Assembly: GCA_030019445.1 (NCBI GenBank)
Contig: JASEEU010000001.1
Span: 434,001-498,000 of the forward strand
DNA: 64,000 nucleotides
Reading direction: 5' to 3'
From: Anaerosomatales bacterium
GTDB taxonomy: Bacteria; Actinomycetota; Coriobacteriia; Anaerosomatales; Anaerosomataceae
The translations under genes were made by a program, and so were the position numbers. The notes below the pieces were generated by a model that was not told the origin of the DNA, did not search any database, and was given only the letters and a program-made list of their open reading frames with translations. Position 1 is the first letter of the stretch. Each line of letters begins with the position of its first letter. This document shows, piece after piece, positions 11,779 through 46,059 of the stretch.

Positions 11779-13098
11779 TCAGCCGGGGTACGCCGCAAGC
11801 GCATGCACGAGCGACGCCGCATCGGCGGGGACGATCCGCACCGGCGCGTCGGCGAGTTCGCCGAGCGAAGCCGCGGGGATGTCGTCCAGGGTGAGCCCGT
11901 CGGAGTTTACTATAACGTCCGGCACGATGTAGGGCCCGTCGTCCCCATCCGCCCGTATCGCGGTGACGATGTCCGCGGCGCCGAGGAGGCCCGCCACCGT
12001 GACGCTCGGCCCGAAGAGCGTGTTGCCCACGCCGAGGACGCGCACACGGCCATCGAGCCCCGCGGCCGACAACAGGCGTTCAAGCACCGGCGCGAAGAGC
12101 GTCCCGGTCACGAGCACCCCGCGCCCGACGCGAGGCGACACGTCCGTGGAGCCGGCAAGCTCATCGGCGAACGCCCGGACCATGCCTATACCGTTCTCGT
12201 ACTGTGGGAATCCGTCGTACGCCTCAGCGGGCGGCACCTCCGACCCGGCCAGGAGATGGAATTCGTCGGCGGCGTAGACCCACCCGGACCCCCGCTCGCT
12301 CCGCATCCGGCGCTGCGTCTCGGCCACCGCGTCGAGCACGTCGCGCGCCTGCGCGGGCGTGCGGTACGAGGGCTTCTCGGCGGCATGCCGCGCGGTCCGA
12401 CCAACCGGGACGAGCCCACCGGAGCGCACGCCGTCCCGGGCTGCAAGCCACGCAAGGGTGCGACTGAGGACGCCGCCATCGTTGACGCCGGGCACGAGCA
12501 CGACCTGCGCGTGGACCTCGATGCCCGCCTCGAGCAACTCGTCGAGACGCTCGAGCGCGCGGTCCTCGACCGTCGGGCAGATGAGGCGCCGGCGCACATC
12601 GGGATCGACCGCGTGCACTGAGACGTAGAGCGGCGAGAGGCGTTGCTCGACGATGCGCGTCACGTCATCGTCGTCGAGGTTGGTGAGCGTGATGAACGTC
12701 TGCTCGAGGAAGGACAGCCGGTAGTCGTCATCGCGGACGTAGAGCGACCGGCGCAATCCCGTGGGCAGCCCGGCGACGAAGCAGAACGTGCACGCGTTCT
12801 CGCACTCGCGCACCCCGTCGAAGACGGCGTCCCGGAACGTCACGCCGAGCGCCGTCCCGTCACGCTCGATCTCGATCTCCCGCCGCCGGCCGCCGCGCTC
12901 GATGGTGACCGAGAAGGACGGCTCGCCGGTGAGCCACTGCCAGTCGAGGATGTCGCGCACGCGCCGTCCATCGACGGCGAGGACGACGTCACCCGGCCGA
13001 AGCCCGGCCCTCCAGGCGACCGACCCGCGCTCCACGGTCTCGAGCGTGCCGCCGGTGCCCGCCGCCGGGCGCGTCTCCGCGTATCGCCTATGCTCCAT
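11779..13098 (-). CDS. DUF512 protein: PDZ domain plus radical-SAM-like iron-sulfur enzyme
   Basis: This 439-residue protein begins with a PDZ-like domain (VERGSVAWRAGLRPGDVVLA, about residues 22-42). A radical-SAM-like core follows, with the three-cysteine motif CENACTFCFVAGLPTGLR near residue 99 and the companion signature LYVRDDDYRLSFL. The DUF512 C-terminal domain carries VTGTLFAP and DVIVNSDGL motifs. The family lies next to der and ispH in many Bacillota and Actinomycetota, and its substrate is unknown. It overlaps ispH by 11 bases. Family identity is confident; function is not. Confidence 0.85.
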   Translation of the reverse strand: MEHRRYAETRPAAGTGGTLETVERGSVAWRAGLRPGDVVLAVDGRRVRDILDWQWLTGEPSFSVTIERGGRRREIEIERDGTALGVTFRDAVFDGVRECENACTFCFVAGLPTGLRRSLYVRDDDYRLSFLEQTFITLTNLDDDDVTRIVEQRLSPLYVSVHAVDPDVRRRLICPTVEDRALERLDELLEAGIEVHAQVVLVPGVNDGGVLSRTLAWLAARDGVRSGGLVPVGRTARHAAEKPSYRTPAQARDVLDAVAETQRRMRSERGSGWVYAADEFHLLAGSEVPPAEAYDGFPQYENGIGMVRAFADELAGSTDVSPRVGRGVLVTGTLFAPVLERLLSAAGLDGRVRVLGVGNTLFGPSVTVAGLLGAADIVTAIRADGDDGPYIVPDVIVNSDGLTLDDIPAASLGELADAPVRIVPADAASLVHALAAYPG

Positions 13099-13933
13099 CG
13101 CCGTCGAGCGCCTCGATCGCCGCGATCACACCGCGGATCTGCTCGTCGGGCGTGGACGCGCCCGCCGTCACACCGACGGTCTCGGCATCGGCGAACCACT
13201 CTGCCCTGAGCTCGTCGGCGGTCTCGACATGCCGCACGTTGGGATTCACCGACCGGCAGATCTCAGCGAGCCGGTTCGTGTTTCCCGAGTTGTGCCCCCC
13301 GACGACCACGATGACATCGACGCGCGCGGCGAGGTCCGCGGCCGCGGCCTGCCGCTGTGCCGTCGCGCTGCAGATGGTGTTGCAGACGCGCAGCTCGGTC
13401 ACCCTGCCGAGGAGCGCCGAGACGACCTCTTCGAGCCGCGCGAGCGACTGCGTGGTCTGGACCACGACGCCGATGCGCCGTGACGGCAGCTTGGCCGGGA
13501 GGTCCGCCGCGCTTTGCACGATGAGCGCCTTGCCCCCCGCGTGGGCGAGGATGCCCTCCACTTCGGGATGCTCGGCCTCACCGACGATGATCACCGAGTA
13601 CGCGCCGGCCACCAGGTCTGAGGCGCATGTGTGGGCGGCACGGACGAACGGACATGTGGCGTCGACGACCTCCAGCCCTTTGGCGCGCGCCGCCTCGATG
13701 ATGGCCGGGTCGACGCCGTGGGAGCGGATGACGACGGTGCCCTCCGAGACCTCGTCGAGGCGTGAGGCTACCTCGACACCCTTTCCGCGGAGCCCCTCGA
13801 CGGCCTGCGGGTTATGGATGAGCGGACCGAGCGTGTGGACGGGGCCCTCGGCCCCGCTCGCCTCGACGGCGAGCTTGAGCGCACGCTCGACGCCGTAGCA
13901 GACGCCCGCGTGCTCTGCGACGATCACCTTCAT
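13088..13933 (-). CDS. ispH: 4-hydroxy-3-methylbut-2-enyl diphosphate reductase
   Basis: This 281-residue enzyme catalyses the last step of the MEP isoprenoid pathway, giving IPP and DMAPP through a 4Fe-4S cluster. The three cluster cysteines are in AGVCYGVERAL (residue 12), VVDATCPFV (near 95) and CNTICSATAQRQ (near 190). The conserved His motifs IRSHGVDP and GEAEHPEVEG are also present. No extra ribosomal protein S1 domain is fused, unlike in some Bacillota. It overlaps plsC by four bases. Confidence 0.96.
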   Translation of the reverse strand: MKVIVAEHAGVCYGVERALKLAVEASGAEGPVHTLGPLIHNPQAVEGLRGKGVEVASRLDEVSEGTVVIRSHGVDPAIIEAARAKGLEVVDATCPFVRAAHTCASDLVAGAYSVIIVGEAEHPEVEGILAHAGGKALIVQSAADLPAKLPSRRIGVVVQTTQSLARLEEVVSALLGRVTELRVCNTICSATAQRQAAAADLAARVDVIVVVGGHNSGNTNRLAEICRSVNPNVRHVETADELRAEWFADAETVGVTAGASTPDEQIRGVIAAIEALDGDGA

Positions 13934-32105: not shown

Positions 32106-33785
32106 CTAGATGACGACCCGGGCGATCTCCTCGAGACTCGTGACGCCGGCGGCCACCTTGTCGAGCGCATCCCGCCGCAGCGACTTCATCCCCGTGGCGA
32201 GCGCCGTCTTGCGCAGGTCCTCCGAGGAGGCACGCTTGAGGAACAGCGCACGGAGGTCGTCGTTCATCTCCATGATCTCGAACAGCCCGATACGTCCCGC
32301 ATACCCCGTGCCGTAGCATTCGTCACAGCCGACCGGGCCGTACACCTTGACCGAGGAAGACTCCTCTTTCGTGAAGCCCGCAGCAGTGAGCGTGGATGCG
32401 GAGAGCCGGCGCCGCTTCTTGCAGGCGGGGCAGAGTCGCCGGGCCAGGCGCTGGGCGACCACGCCGACGAGCGCCGAGGACGTCACGTACGGCGCCACCT
32501 CCATATCGACCAGACGCGTGAGCGCGGAAGGGGCGTCGTTGGTGTGGATGGAGGAGAGCACGAGATGCCCGGTAAGCGCCGCCCTGATGGCGATCTCGGC
32601 GGTCTCCGGGTCGCGGATCTCGCCGACCATCGCGACGTCAGGGTCGGAGCGCAGGACCGTGCGCAGCAGCCGCGCGAAGCTCAGGCCGATCGCCGGGTTC
32701 ACCGCCATCTGCGTGATCCCCCCGATCTGGTACTCGATCGGGTCCTCGATGGTGATGATCTTGCGGCTGGGCTCGTTGAGCTGCATGAGCGACGCGTAGA
32801 GCGTGGTGGTCTTGCCCGACCCGGTCGGCCCCGAGATGAAGACCGCCCCGTACGGACGCGTCAGGAACCGCCGCATGATCTCGAGGTTGCCCTCGGTCAG
32901 GCCGAGGTCCTCGAGCTTGAGCGCTTCCATGTCCTGGTTGAGCACGCGCAGCACGATGCTCTCGCCGGAGGGGGTGGGCAGCGTAGCGACGCGCAGGTCG
33001 ACGGGACGACCGTTCACGATGACGCCGATCCGTCCGTCCTGGGGGCGGCGACGCTCGGCGATGTTCATGTCGGCCATGACCTTCACCCGGCTGATGAGGC
33101 CGGGCTTGATGGAGAGCGGGAGCCGCATGATCTCCTGCAGCACACCGTCGATCCGATAGCGGATCCGCACGCCCTTGTCACCGGGCTCGATGTGGATGTC
33201 GCTCGCGTTGTCGGCGATCGCCTCACGGATGAGCTGGTTGACCAGGCGGACGACCGGCACGTCCTCGTCACCGGCGATCACCTCGTCGGGGACTGCTTCC
33301 TCCTCGCCCGCCGCGACCATGATGTCCTGCACGACGTCGGCGGCAGCGATGTACTTCTCGATCGCGTACTGGATCTGGGTGCCGGTCGCGACCACCGGGA
33401 TCACGCCGAGGCCCGTGCTCACCTTCACGTCGTCGATCGCCTCGACGTCGAGCGGATCGGCCATCGCGAGCACGAGGGAACCGTCCTCGTAGCCGATGGG
33501 TATCACGAGGTTGCGCCTCGCGATGCGCTCGGGGATGCGACTCGTGGCCTCGCGGTCCACCGGATACGTGGTGAGGCTCACATGGTCGAGCCCTTTCTGC
33601 TCTGCAAGCGTCCGTGCGATGTCGTCCTCGTCCACGATCAGCTGCCTGACGAGGATCTGACCGAGCTTGCCCCCCTCGGCAACCTGGACCTGGAGCGCGT
33701 GATCGAGTTGGGCGCGGGTGACCAGCCCCGCCGCCACGAGCAGCTCGCCCAGTCGTTCGCGCGTGTACCCGACGCCGCCACCCAT
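32106..33785 (-). CDS. pilB: GspE/PilB-type assembly ATPase with MshEN c-di-GMP-binding domain
   Basis: This 559-residue hexameric ATPase powers type IV pilus or type II secretion assembly. Residues 11-34 and 40-63 are two MshEN motifs (RLGELLVAAGLV..., KLGQILVRQLIV...) separated by the canonical five residues, predicting c-di-GMP binding. The ATPase has GPTGSGKTTTLYASL (Walker A, 319-333), the Asp box, VGEIRDPETAEIA (Walker B) and the His box HTNDAPSALTRLVDM. A zinc finger is formed by C452, C455, C487 and C490. No pilin, PilC or PilT gene adjoins it. Start ATG 33785 (MGGGVGYTRE). Confidence 0.9.
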   Translation of the reverse strand: MGGGVGYTRERLGELLVAAGLVTRAQLDHALQVQVAEGGKLGQILVRQLIVDEDDIARTLAEQKGLDHVSLTTYPVDREATSRIPERIARRNLVIPIGYEDGSLVLAMADPLDVEAIDDVKVSTGLGVIPVVATGTQIQYAIEKYIAAADVVQDIMVAAGEEEAVPDEVIAGDEDVPVVRLVNQLIREAIADNASDIHIEPGDKGVRIRYRIDGVLQEIMRLPLSIKPGLISRVKVMADMNIAERRRPQDGRIGVIVNGRPVDLRVATLPTPSGESIVLRVLNQDMEALKLEDLGLTEGNLEIMRRFLTRPYGAVFISGPTGSGKTTTLYASLMQLNEPSRKIITIEDPIEYQIGGITQMAVNPAIGLSFARLLRTVLRSDPDVAMVGEIRDPETAEIAIRAALTGHLVLSSIHTNDAPSALTRLVDMEVAPYVTSSALVGVVAQRLARRLCPACKKRRRLSASTLTAAGFTKEESSSVKVYGPVGCDECYGTGYAGRIGLFEIMEMNDDLRALFLKRASSEDLRKTALATGMKSLRRDALDKVAAGVTSLEEIARVVI

Positions 33786-33808
33786 CAGATCACTCTCCCG
33801 GAGATCCG

Positions 33809-34093
33809 CTACAGCCGTTTGCGTACGATCGCGAGCACCCACTCCATGACGAGCACACCGGCCACGGTCGCCGCTGCTGAGGCGTCGAACACGCCGAAGT
33901 ACGGCGTCGACACGCGCGGCAGCCCGAACGCGGGGGTGAGCGCATCCGCAAGCCTGAGGACCGCCCCGCCGACCGCCGACTGCGCGAGGACCCCGAAGTA
34001 CCGTGCGACGATACCCGCGGTCAGCACGATCGCGACGGCGACGAGCACGTCCATGACGAACGTGACGAACCGCTGTGCCGGCAGCTTGCGCAT
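33809..34093 (-). CDS. Small uncharacterised membrane protein
   Basis: This 94-residue protein has two hydrophobic helices (about residues 10-34 and 68-88) separated by a short loop containing TPYFGVFD. It ends in a basic VRKRL, so both termini are probably cytoplasmic. I do not recognise a family. It precedes pilB by 23 bases and follows a strong intrinsic terminator, so it may open the pilB-deoB-deoA unit and may assist the pilus ATPase, though nothing in the sequence proves that. Confidence 0.6.
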   Translation of the reverse strand: MRKLPAQRFVTFVMDVLVAVAIVLTAGIVARYFGVLAQSAVGGAVLRLADALTPAFGLPRVSTPYFGVFDASAAATVAGVLVMEWVLAIVRKRL

Positions 34094-34154: not shown

Positions 34155-34184
34155 AGAAAAGCGGCGGCGCGAATGCGCCGCCGC
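34155..34184 (-). terminator. Intrinsic terminator after the FlgM-like gene
   Basis: On the minus strand, AGCGGCGGCGC and GCGCCGCCGCT form a perfect 11-bp stem with an ATTC loop, followed by TTTTCTG. It lies about 25 bases beyond the stop of the gene at 34210-34482 and separates it from the small membrane protein and pilB. Confidence 0.85.
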
Positions 34185-34209
34185 TCGTCACCCCGACCGG
34201 GCAGTCGCG

Positions 34210-34482
34210 TCAGCGGACGGCGTCCGAGATGACGCGGCCGATGAGCTTCTCGGCCACCTCGGACGCGCTCGGCGCCGACTCCGCGAGCAGCCGCCGCGCT
34301 TCCGCGATACGGTCGTCGCGAACGTCGGGCACCTCGCGCAGGGCCTCCGTCACGCGCACCACGAGCTCACGTGGTGCTTCGTGCGACGCCGGACACTTCG
34401 CAGGCTCGTATTCGTCTGATGTCCGCAGGTACTCGACGGCGCACCGCACCTGCTCGGCTGAGATGATCATGATGCAGTTCAT
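34210..34482 (-). CDS. FlgM-like putative anti-sigma factor
   Basis: This 90-residue protein has the size and layout of FlgM. It has a short N-terminus starting with IISAEQVRCAVEYL, a variable middle, and a C-terminal helix pair in which DVRDDRIAEARRLL is followed by SASEVAEKLIGRVISD, resembling the FlgM pattern in which a helix ending ...KVAEKML binds sigma-28. No flagellar genes are in the window, so it could inhibit a sigma factor for another regulon, or flagellar genes may lie elsewhere. The start may be ATG 34482 or the in-frame ATG 34470. It has its own promoter, structured leader and terminator. Confidence 0.5.
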   Translation of the reverse strand: MNCIMIISAEQVRCAVEYLRTSDEYEPAKCPASHEAPRELVVRVTEALREVPDVRDDRIAEARRLLAESAPSASEVAEKLIGRVISDAVR

Positions 34483-34609
34483 ATCGGCTTGGCGCCTCGC
34501 TCACTTGAGAGCGATGCGCCCGGCGGCGCGCGTCCACACCGATCGCCGTCCTCGCCCGGCGTGGGACGTGGACGGGGTACGCGGACTGCATGGGGCACCC
34601 ACGGAGATG

Positions 34610-34682
34610 ACCCCTACAAAAGGGGGAGCCCCAAGGCCGGCACCTTGAGGCTCAGGGGTAAGGGGTTGCCGAAGCAACTCTG
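34610..34682 (-). terminator. Structured leader with terminator-like hairpin between nuoN and the FlgM-like gene
   Basis: On the minus strand, GTTGC-TTCG-GCAAC at 34665-34678 is followed by an interrupted stem GAGCC..AAGG / CCTT..GGCTC (34626-34653) and then CCCCCTTTTGT. The second hairpin looks like an intrinsic terminator. It could end the nuo transcript, and because a promoter lies between it and nuoN it would also act as an attenuator on the FlgM-like transcript. A third small stem CCCCT/AGGGG follows. No known riboswitch core was recognised. The rest of the 34483-34788 gap (34483-34600) shows nothing clear. Confidence 0.5.
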
Positions 34683-34688
34683 CTAGTG

Positions 34689-34717
34689 ATTCTACGCACG
34701 GATTCAGCATCGCGCAA
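34689..34717 (-). promoter_or_regulatory. Candidate promoter of the FlgM-like gene
   Basis: On the minus strand TTGCGC (34717-34712) and TAGAAT (34694-34689) are separated by exactly 17 bases. Transcription would begin near 34682, at the base of the GTTGC hairpin, giving a leader of about 200 bases before the FlgM-like gene. Confidence 0.5.
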
Positions 34718-34722
34718 GGGTC

Positions 34723-34740
34723 TTGTGAATGAATCCACAA
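34723..34740. promoter_or_regulatory. Rex-type operator upstream of the FlgM-like promoter
   Basis: TTGTGAATGAATCCACAA differs at one base from the actinobacterial Rex consensus TTGTGAA-N4-TTCACAA. It sits six bases upstream of the -35 element of the promoter at 34689-34717. Further TGTGAA/TTCACA half-sites follow within 30 bases (TATTCACATG, AGTTCACAGG), suggesting a composite regulatory region. Rex is known to respond to the NADH/NAD+ ratio. The regulator gene itself is not in the window. Confidence 0.5.
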
Positions 34741-34788: not shown

Positions 34789-36246
34789 CTACATCACCGC
34801 AAGCAGGCGCAGCATCGGCTCGATACCGAACGCAACCGGCGCCACTCCCCCGCCGATGACGAGCAGTATGGCGATCGCCGCCGCCCATGCGGCGCTGCCG
34901 CCACGGGCGCCCGGCTCATCGCCGAGCACCGCGAGCGCCTCGTCCGGTTCTTCGAAGTACGCGACCTTGAGCACGCGGCCGTAGTAGCCGAACGACACGA
35001 CCGAGCCGATCACCCCGACGATGACGAGCCACGTCCAGCCCTCGCCGACAGCGGACAGGAAGACGAGCAGCTTGCCCCAGAACCCGATCAGGAGCGGTAT
35101 CCCGGTGAGCGAGAGCATCGACGCCGCCAGCGCCACGCCGATGAGCGGATGACGTCTGCCCAGGCCCTTCATCCCGGCCACCGTGCCGTTCCAGCGGGGC
35201 TCGGCCACGGCGAGCGCCTCGGCGCAGATGAACGCCGCAGCCACGCTCACCGCGTACGTCGCGCCGAAGAGCACGGCCCGGCCCGCACCTGCGTCGCCCG
35301 CCGAGAGGCCGATGAGCGCGTACCCGACCTGAGCGATGCCCGAGTAGCCGAGCATCCGCGCGAACGAGGACTGCCGCAGCGCGCCAAGATTGCCCACGAC
35401 GATCGACGCCGTGGCGAGCGCGGCAGCGAGGTTGGCGAGGACCGCGAACGCGTCCGCCTCGAACACGGCGCCGCGGAACAGCACGAACATCGCCGCCAGC
35501 GCCGCGACTTTCGGTACCGAAGACAGGACCGCCGCGCCGGACGCTTCGCTCGTCTCATACGCGTCGGGCACCCACGCGTGGAACGGGAACGCCCCGAGCT
35601 TGAACGCGAAGACGGCCAGGAGGAGCGCCATCGCAAGCAGCGCGGGCCGGGCCGGCGCCTGCGCCATGGTCACCGCGAGCGTGCCGTAGTCGACCGCCCC
35701 GCCTCCGAAGGCGTGAACGAGCGCGAGGCCGAGGACCGCCAGCGAGGTCGCGACCGCGCCCTGCACGAAGTACCTGACGGCGGCCTCGTCGCTGCGATCG
35801 GTACGCGCGCCGGCGATGACGGCGTAGCTGCCCACCGCGACGATCTCGAGCGCGATGAGCACCGAGAGCAGGTCGAGCGCCGAGGCGAGGGCCTGCGACG
35901 CGATGGCGAGGAACGCCATGAGCGCCCCGATGCCCGGCCCGTTCGAGCGACGTGAGAGCCGTGAGCCGCCGGCGAGGACGCCGAGCGCCGCGATGAGGTA
36001 GCCGAGCGCGGCGACCCCGGCGAAGCCCCGGCCGACGACGAAGGCGTCGCCGAGCGCGAGCTGCACGGGATGCATCCATGCGGTGTACGCCGCGACACCC
36101 GCCGCTCCGGCGAGGCCGAAGAAGATGATGGCGAGCGCACCCGCGCGACGGCCTGCGGCGTCGGCCGCAAGCCCCGCGCACGCAGCAGCGAGCGCGATGG
36201 CGGCCGGAAGCCAGAACAGCCACGCGGGAGCGGTGATGACGTTCAC
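34789..36246 (-). CDS. nuoN: NADH-quinone oxidoreductase subunit N
   Basis: This 485-residue antiporter-like membrane subunit of complex I is made of about 14 hydrophobic helices. Characteristic stretches include YFVQGAVATSLAVLGLALV, FPFHAWVPDAYETSEASG with the key Lys/His region, and MLGYSGIAQVGYALIGLS. It is the distal gene of the nuo operon, preceded immediately by nuoM. It forms one of three proton channels in the membrane arm. Confidence 0.95.
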   Translation of the reverse strand: MNVITAPAWLFWLPAAIALAAACAGLAADAAGRRAGALAIIFFGLAGAAGVAAYTAWMHPVQLALGDAFVVGRGFAGVAALGYLIAALGVLAGGSRLSRRSNGPGIGALMAFLAIASQALASALDLLSVLIALEIVAVGSYAVIAGARTDRSDEAAVRYFVQGAVATSLAVLGLALVHAFGGGAVDYGTLAVTMAQAPARPALLAMALLLAVFAFKLGAFPFHAWVPDAYETSEASGAAVLSSVPKVAALAAMFVLFRGAVFEADAFAVLANLAAALATASIVVGNLGALRQSSFARMLGYSGIAQVGYALIGLSAGDAGAGRAVLFGATYAVSVAAAFICAEALAVAEPRWNGTVAGMKGLGRRHPLIGVALAASMLSLTGIPLLIGFWGKLLVFLSAVGEGWTWLVIVGVIGSVVSFGYYGRVLKVAYFEEPDEALAVLGDEPGARGGSAAWAAAIAILLVIGGGVAPVAFGIEPMLRLLAVM

Positions 36247-46019: not shown

Positions 46020-46048
46020 GTTATACCAGACGTTTCGGAGTTTGTAAA
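46020..46048 (-). promoter_or_regulatory. Promoter of the nuo operon
   Basis: On the minus strand TTTACA (46048-46043) and TATAAC (46025-46020) are separated by exactly 17 bases, the best sigma-70-type match in the window. Transcription would start near 46013, leaving a leader of about 140 bases before nuoA. Confidence 0.75.
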
Positions 46049-46059
46049 CATTGTTACAA
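46042..46059. promoter_or_regulatory. Rex-like operator overlapping the nuo -35 element
   Basis: TTGTAAACATTGTTACAA has the TTGT-N10-ACAA frame of Rex sites with symmetric substitutions at inner positions (A5/T14). It covers the -35 hexamer, so a bound repressor would block RNA polymerase. In Streptomyces, Rex represses nuo in response to the NADH/NAD+ ratio. Assignment here is by similarity of the site only. Confidence 0.5.

Follow-up and report, generated by a model that had tools for sequence, protein, structure and literature searches.

The RoxS/RsaE RNAs carry a C-rich pairing region, the small 6C RNA of Actinobacteria has two hairpins and unpaired stretches rich in C, and RyhB belongs to the iron/Fur system. 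In Bacillus and Staphylococcus, RoxS/RsaE have a Rex operator at the promoter, and RoxS, which is repressed by Rex, has been proposed to help in readjusting the NAD+/NADH balance (PMC5419742). Going by titles and the opening lines of abstracts, RoxS/RsaE of the Firmicutes is the only small RNA that stands out as Rex-controlled among the papers matched by our searches pairing Rex with sRNAs (PMC5419742). The RyhB of Shewanella is described as an sRNA acting on cytochrome expression (PMC5826389). Our searches for papers on RNA motifs of Coriobacteriia and on sRNAs of OPB41 found none.

We analyzed a 64,000-nucleotide stretch of an Anaerosomatales genome (the window), in which a comparable locus lies between nuoN and a FlgM-like gene, with all features on the minus strand (Table 1). 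Like RoxS/RsaE, it appears to encode a small RNA with a Rex-type operator at its promoter and a C-rich candidate pairing region, but the RNA is ∼65 nt long with two hairpins, belongs to another phylum and has other candidate targets. With 6C RNA it shares the small size, the two hairpins and the unpaired C's, which lie here in the linker, whereas in 6C, as commonly described, they lie in the hairpin loops. Similarly, it may act on cytochromes as RyhB does, but its control is Rex-type and we found no kinship. No Rfam family matched positions 34600–34690 at E ≤ 5, the RoxS/RsaE and 6C models included, and the only hits were chance ones outside the element. With moderate confidence, we favor reading the locus as a gene for a Rex-controlled, C-rich, base-pairing sRNA that acts like RoxS/RsaE on respiratory electron transfer. 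If this is true, it would be a second Rex-controlled sRNA, without visible kinship to RoxS, in Actinobacteria and aimed at multiheme cytochromes. It would thus represent a convergent wiring of NADH sensing to respiration via RNA, and a first handle on electron-transfer control in poorly studied subsurface actinobacteria.

Table 1. Predicted features of the locus and its neighbors, in window positions
Feature	Position	Strand	Basis
nuoN, upstream neighbor	34789..36246	−	listed open reading frame and match
Rex-type operator, TTGTGGATTCATTCACAA on the minus strand, 5 bp upstream of the −35 element	34723..34740	−	pattern search, relatives
−35 element TTGCGC	34712..34717	−	sequence; conserved pair
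−10 element TAGAAT, spacer 17	34689..34694	−	sequence; conserved pair
Small RNA, predicted transcript ∼64 nt (start inferred from −10)	34618..34681	−	R1 match, fold
P1 hairpin GTTGC-TTCG-GCAAC	34665..34678	−	arms vary, pairing kept
C-rich single-stranded linker CCCTTACCCCT, proposed pairing region	34654..34664	−	open in fold, conserved
P2 hairpin GAGCCTCAAGGTGCCGGCCTTGGGGCTC, 12 pairs, almost invariant across the order	34626..34653	−	alignment, fold
CCCCTTTT tail, presumed 3′ end	34618..34625	−	sequence, alignment
Optional weak third hairpin CCCCT-TTTGT-AGGGG	34611..34625	−	computed
Sigma28/WhiG-type promoter TCAA-N16-GCCGATA of the FlgM-like gene	34482..34508	−	sequence, relatives
FlgM-like anti-sigma gene, 86 aa, start at the second ATG of the listed open reading frame	34210..34470	−	homology

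The original prediction had named a near-consensus Rex site, a TTGCGC-17-TAGAAT promoter, an RNA start with GTTGC-TTCG-GCAAC and a terminator-like hairpin. All four are present: the 18-mer is one mismatch away from the Rex consensus TTGTGAANNNNTTCACAA, the promoter and the first hairpin are where they had been placed, and the second hairpin is followed by CCCCTTTT. Folded alone, the 66-nt RNA reached −27.9 kcal/mol (z −2.75; 2 of 200 shuffles fold as well) and formed exactly P1 and P2, leaving the C-rich linker (CCCUUACCCCU) open, also by unpaired probabilities. For a 97-nt piece the z score was −1.88, and part of the linker paired with downstream G's. The U-tract after P2 is short and comes after C's, with CCCCUUUU as the tail at the presumed 3′ end. 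Past the tail, a third hairpin scored at least 9 in 41 of 61 units, and its mean strength of 8.90, against 8.14 in a tail-swap control (control maximum 8.92), gives it modest support. Taken together, the sequence features point to a ∼65-nt RNA gene, which would be transcribed from the promoter in Table 1.

The element is strongly conserved. FlgM-like matches occurred in 56 of 99 genomes, including the window's own, and the same 32-nt core was found at 56 of the 58 fetched loci. Columns 3–37 of the core were identical in 55 of 55 copies except for columns 15 and 16, which deviate in one copy each, and column 32, which is G or A (44:11). These 55 RNA copies are a different set from the 55 FlgM loci considered below, since L063 and L064 carry the RNA without a FlgM BLAST match and L019 and L049 carry FlgM without the RNA; L051, a duplicate contig end of G032, was left out of all unit counts. 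Information content was 1.7–2.0 bits per position in the core, as compared with 0.03–0.10 from 60 nt past the core start towards flgM. Thirty-five nucleotides of the RNA are thus almost invariant, which raises the question of a partner molecule. A coding sequence was judged unlikely, given a core almost without substitutions, and a dif-like 11-6-11 DNA site was rejected for P2, as the window has no clear GC-skew turn, G·U pairs are kept and P1 covaries.

The original prediction had proposed covariation in relatives as a check, and here the two hairpins differed. P1 occurred in 15 arm combinations, with UNCG (27) or GNRA (25) loops in 52 of 55 copies in an arm search that gave such loops a bonus, and its pairing was kept through changes such as GTTGC/GCAAC to GCTGC/GCAGC, and also in L063 with an entirely different helix. 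Three P1 pairs had substitutions in both partners, a number attained by 14 of 500 shuffles, and the covariation score of the 23 distinct rows was above all 500 shuffles (0/500). P2, in contrast, pairs fully but has zero pairs changed on both sides. In the MAFFT alignment P1 occurs in two lengths that are not correctly aligned with each other, and for this reason RNAalifold recovered P2 but just two P1 pairs.

Globally, a covariance model (R1) built from 32 of the 55 copies (alignment A2) matched 60 of the 69 genomes of the order (Anaerosomatales/OPB41) but gave no match in the 81 genomes from other orders (class sample of 149). Its match in the window's own genome (34618–34678; 82.8 bits, E 1.2e-16) is to one of the 32 model-building sequences. 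Copies were single except in G024 (two) and G032 (two identical contig ends), both MAGs, and R1 had no match in G014, G048, G051 and G062 despite completeness of at least 90%. An exact scan with a 29-mer returned 46 stretches labelled Coriobacteriia, Coriobacteriales, Coriobacteriaceae, Actinobacteria, Actinomycetes or Actinomycetota, and one Anaerosomatales; two records with the genus labels Aeromicrobium and Slackia look like mislabels. In a phylum sample searched at ≤3 mismatches, 4 of 396 genomes matched, all in the window's family and including its own, and viral contigs gave no exact match. The element shows what is expected of an independent gene, namely its own promoter at a fixed distance (spacer 16–18), covariation (in P1) and freedom from the orientation of its neighbor (in one genome, L043).

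A TTG…-16/17/18-TA…T pair stood at the promoter position in 61 of 61 copies, in a scan that takes the best-scoring pair per copy; a strict promoter scanner missed TTGCGC-17-TAGAAT. Within 47 nt upstream of the −35 element, a Rex-type box was found at ≤3 mismatches in 23 of 61 units (0.07 expected from shuffles; one with the reversed pattern) and at ≤4 mismatches in 28 (0.57 expected; three reversed), counted as genomes with related ones apart and therefore not as independent events. Twenty-seven of these 28 boxes end 0–6 nt from the −35 element and one at 15 nt. The conservation of the 18-bp site anticipated by the original prediction thus holds for these 28 units, whereas in the other 33 the box was absent from the 47 nt at ≤4 mismatches. 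Across the order, a search at ≤1 mismatch returned 21 sites in 19 of 69 genomes and one control site. Only the window's site adjoins this RNA; elsewhere, the neighbors of such sites include a pyridine nucleotide-disulphide oxidoreductase (L153, L157), a GGDEF protein (L155, L156) and a CDGSH protein (L168, L169), and several others were inside open reading frames. In G023, one such site with 1 mismatch (L154:1001-1018) precedes a gene of the cytochrome b561 family at a place distant from the sRNA. In its own 2.09-Mb genome, the window's box is the sole site at ≤1 mismatch, but the reversed control pattern also gives one site there, so the own-genome match is weak evidence by itself and the strength of the box comes from the relatives. 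The window holds two Rex-type sites at ≤3 mismatches, against 0.12 expected from shuffles, the second being the palindrome TTGTAAACATTGTTACAA at 46042–46059 (3 mismatches).

The locus thus combines a near-consensus site at a promoter with a genome that encodes Rex, and we take the box to be Rex-type, with Rex as its probable binder. Three PF06971 (Rex-type) genes are present in the 2.1-Mb genome (L004, L005, L006), and two or three copies occur in 53 of the 69 genomes of the order. The operator could instead belong to a Crp/Fnr-type regulator, as the palindrome includes TGTGA-N6-TCACA, the Crp consensus, and a search of the 1.5 kb flanking each side of the three own rex-type genes turned up nothing closer to the consensus than 4 mismatches. 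However, the inner GAA-N4-TTC, which is part of the Rex consensus, is mostly kept where one half decays in other families, as in Rex sites, and Rex-type proteins are encoded in 66 of the 69 genomes. We consider the Crp/Fnr assignment unlikely.

The original prediction had further interpreted the element as an attenuator leader linking redox state to an anti-sigma factor. The identity of the neighbor is weak when judged from its own protein (Pfam FlgM, E 0.01, below the cut-off) and better from relatives: FlgM was matched at E ≤ 0.1 in 22 of 38 (alignment A3, 38 of 55 proteins), at best with 9e-6, and the best PDB match of their profile was a negative regulator of flagellin synthesis (E 0.0065). 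Directly before the start of this gene, T(C/T/A)AA-N16-CCGAT is found in 52 of 55 loci, in line with the sigma28/WhiG-type consensus as quoted in PMC8325347. A FliA/WhiG sigma factor is encoded ∼105 kb away in the same genome (290.7 bits, above the cut-off).

Could the RNA then be part of the 5′ leader of flgM-orf94-pilB, as a riboswitch or attenuator whose regulated terminator is P2? Fifty-two of the 53 units with a recognized flgM point towards it, loci without a nuoN match upstream among them, and the weak third hairpin lies directly downstream. Yet in L043 the segment between nuoN and flgM carries box, promoter and RNA turned round as a single block, a separate sigma28-type promoter serves flgM, the spacer towards flgM is unconserved, P2 lacks the covariation expected of an aptamer helix, and the linker is complementary to cytochrome RBSs in trans. 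A flgM attenuator should always lie in cis, on the same strand and with no closer promoter, which is not what we observe. The cis-leader reading is therefore quite improbable, and a Rex-to-FlgM attenuator in particular is unlikely, because the block is inverted in one genome and flgM has a promoter of its own; read-through from the RNA into flgM is possible. What stands of the earlier interpretation is a conserved redox box before a structured RNA, and the element is better read, from these comparisons, as a stand-alone small RNA gene. In agreement with this, the RNA is kept even where no nuoN match precedes it, which is the case at five loci or more (L008, L040, L044, L048, L054).

Near the FlgM-like gene lies a gene for a PilB/GspE-type ATPase (32106–33842). 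The order has two cultured isolates, both reported to lack motility and to bear pili-like appendages; one of them is a dissimilatory Fe(III) reducer (PMC9686372). Together with the conserved sigma28-type promoter and the encoded sigma factor, this suggests that a sigma28/FlgM switch has been reused for type IV pili. The RsiG–WhiG switch over type IV pili of Rubrobacter, likewise in a deep actinobacterial lineage, also combines a sigma28/WhiG-type promoter and an anti-sigma factor by type IV pilus genes (PMC8325347), but the anti-sigma factor here is FlgM-like and the sRNA is a separate unit. Just past the FlgM-like gene, a strong GC hairpin followed by TTTTCT (34155–34185, minus strand) probably serves as its terminator, which may make flgM monocistronic.

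We searched for candidate targets of the linker in the genomes of the order. The long perfect target AGGGGTAAGGGG, searched in 69 genomes, matched almost only the RNA gene itself, and the rest of the matches were no more than in the control. The RBS-type pattern AGGGGTAAN{2,8}ATG, searched in 34 genomes (one per genus), gave 46 hits (one site counted twice) as compared with 17 for the control and led to a cytochrome cluster, with the same c-type cytochrome in three families of the order. Matches to this cytochrome, weak paralogs included, occur in 57 of 69 genomes; the window's own genome encodes no more than a weakly similar relative (E 5.4e-8). In G002, the cluster comprises a cytochrome b561 and three multiheme c cytochromes, and looks like an extracellular electron-transfer conduit. 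A Rex-type gene lies within a multiheme cluster of the Fe(III)-reducing isolate (PMC9686372).

The linker paired with the RBS of the multiheme cytochrome c gene with a mean of −14.7 kcal/mol at 29 of 30 loci fetched from the 57 genomes with a match (L258 was dropped for want of a start codon), as compared with −12.3 for the reversed linker. For the cytochrome b561-family gene (PF01292) two genes upstream, the mean was −14.0 in 23 cases (reversed −11.5), and for the multiheme gene between the two it was −7.2 in 17. The RBSs of nuoN, nuoM, flgM, orf94 and pilB gave −5.5 to −7.8, values that include misplaced starts and flatter the contrast; with better-placed starts, the nuo genes reached −8.3 to −11.6 but were not specific relative to shuffled linkers (+0.5 to +1.0; nuoL −0.7), and they showed no complementarity that is conserved. 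Since the reversed linker still reaches −12.3 and −11.5, much of the pairing energy is G-richness. Contiguous matches reached 10 bp at a cytochrome c RBS (G032) and 11 bp at a cytochrome b RBS (G031).

The measure that we trust most is the energy of the linker minus that of shuffled linkers, with gene starts picked by best anti-Shine–Dalgarno energy. Here, the background averaged +0.82 (587 genes), as opposed to −3.0 for cytochrome c (26 of 29 negative) and −3.6 for cytochrome b (21 of 23 negative). To obtain the 23 cytochrome b genes, we used 20 chosen regions and three background stretches (L295, L311, L317) placed deliberately over the cytochrome locus, so that the cytochrome genes in the background list carry a selection bias. 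When values were averaged within families, to correct for relatedness, specificity was negative in 11 of 11 families for cytochrome c and for cytochrome b, and none of 20,000 random gene sets was as low, also against the 159 background genes with G-runs. A composition test gave a weaker result, in that 12 of 399 shuffled linkers did as well for cytochrome c and 4 of 399 for cytochrome b. RBSs complementary to the linker at ≤−14 were not enriched over those for the reversed linker (27 versus 24 of 587; 12 versus 15 in G002). Conserved complementarity to RBSs, as expected of a C-rich trans-acting sRNA, was thus found for the cytochrome c and b genes. G048 and G062, in which R1 did not find the RNA, nevertheless have the cytochrome with a complementary RBS (−13.0 in both).

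From a gene, structure, conservation, box and RBS complementarity that are supported by sequence comparison, we infer the following course of events. Where the box exists, a Rex-type repressor, a sensor of NADH/NAD+, would sit beside the −35 element and keep the promoter shut at low NADH; a rise in NADH would relieve it, and the ∼65-nt RNA would be made, its 5′ end guarded by the tetraloop hairpin and its 3′ end closed by P2. In the cell, the linker CCCUUACCCCU would then pair with G-rich RBSs (GGGGUAAGG, GGGUAGGGG) of mRNAs for respiratory electron carriers, chiefly the cytochrome b561/multiheme c-cytochrome cluster, and alter their translation, by either repression or activation.

Pairing by the linker does not account for the invariance of P2, which is conserved beyond the need of a terminator, so a second partner is likely. 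That the main role of the RNA is to capture an RNA-binding protein through P2, as a 6S- or CsrB-like decoy with base pairing secondary, would fit arms and a loop that barely vary across the order, a constancy beyond what pairing by itself requires, but is decidedly improbable, as we recognized no known protein-binding motif in P2 by eye and the RBS-complementary linker offers a simpler function. A more far-reaching version of the base-pairing sRNA that we favor can be put forward tentatively: a new order-wide RNA family, whose Rex-to-sRNA logic evolved independently of RoxS, through which, in Gram-positive metal reducers, NADH sets the translation of cytochromes for extracellular electron transfer, and whose near-frozen P2 binds a protein or RNA partner.

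The pattern AGGGGTAAN{2,8}ATG had no match in the window's own genome. A possible target there, judged by complementarity, is ispH (Pfam LYTB; 13088–13933, minus strand), whose RBS GGGGTGAGG pairs with the linker at −17.8 kcal/mol. In G002, the RBS of adenylate kinase (L283:4952-5605) is also complementary to the linker, and the same pattern matches adk-like genes in G040 and G060.
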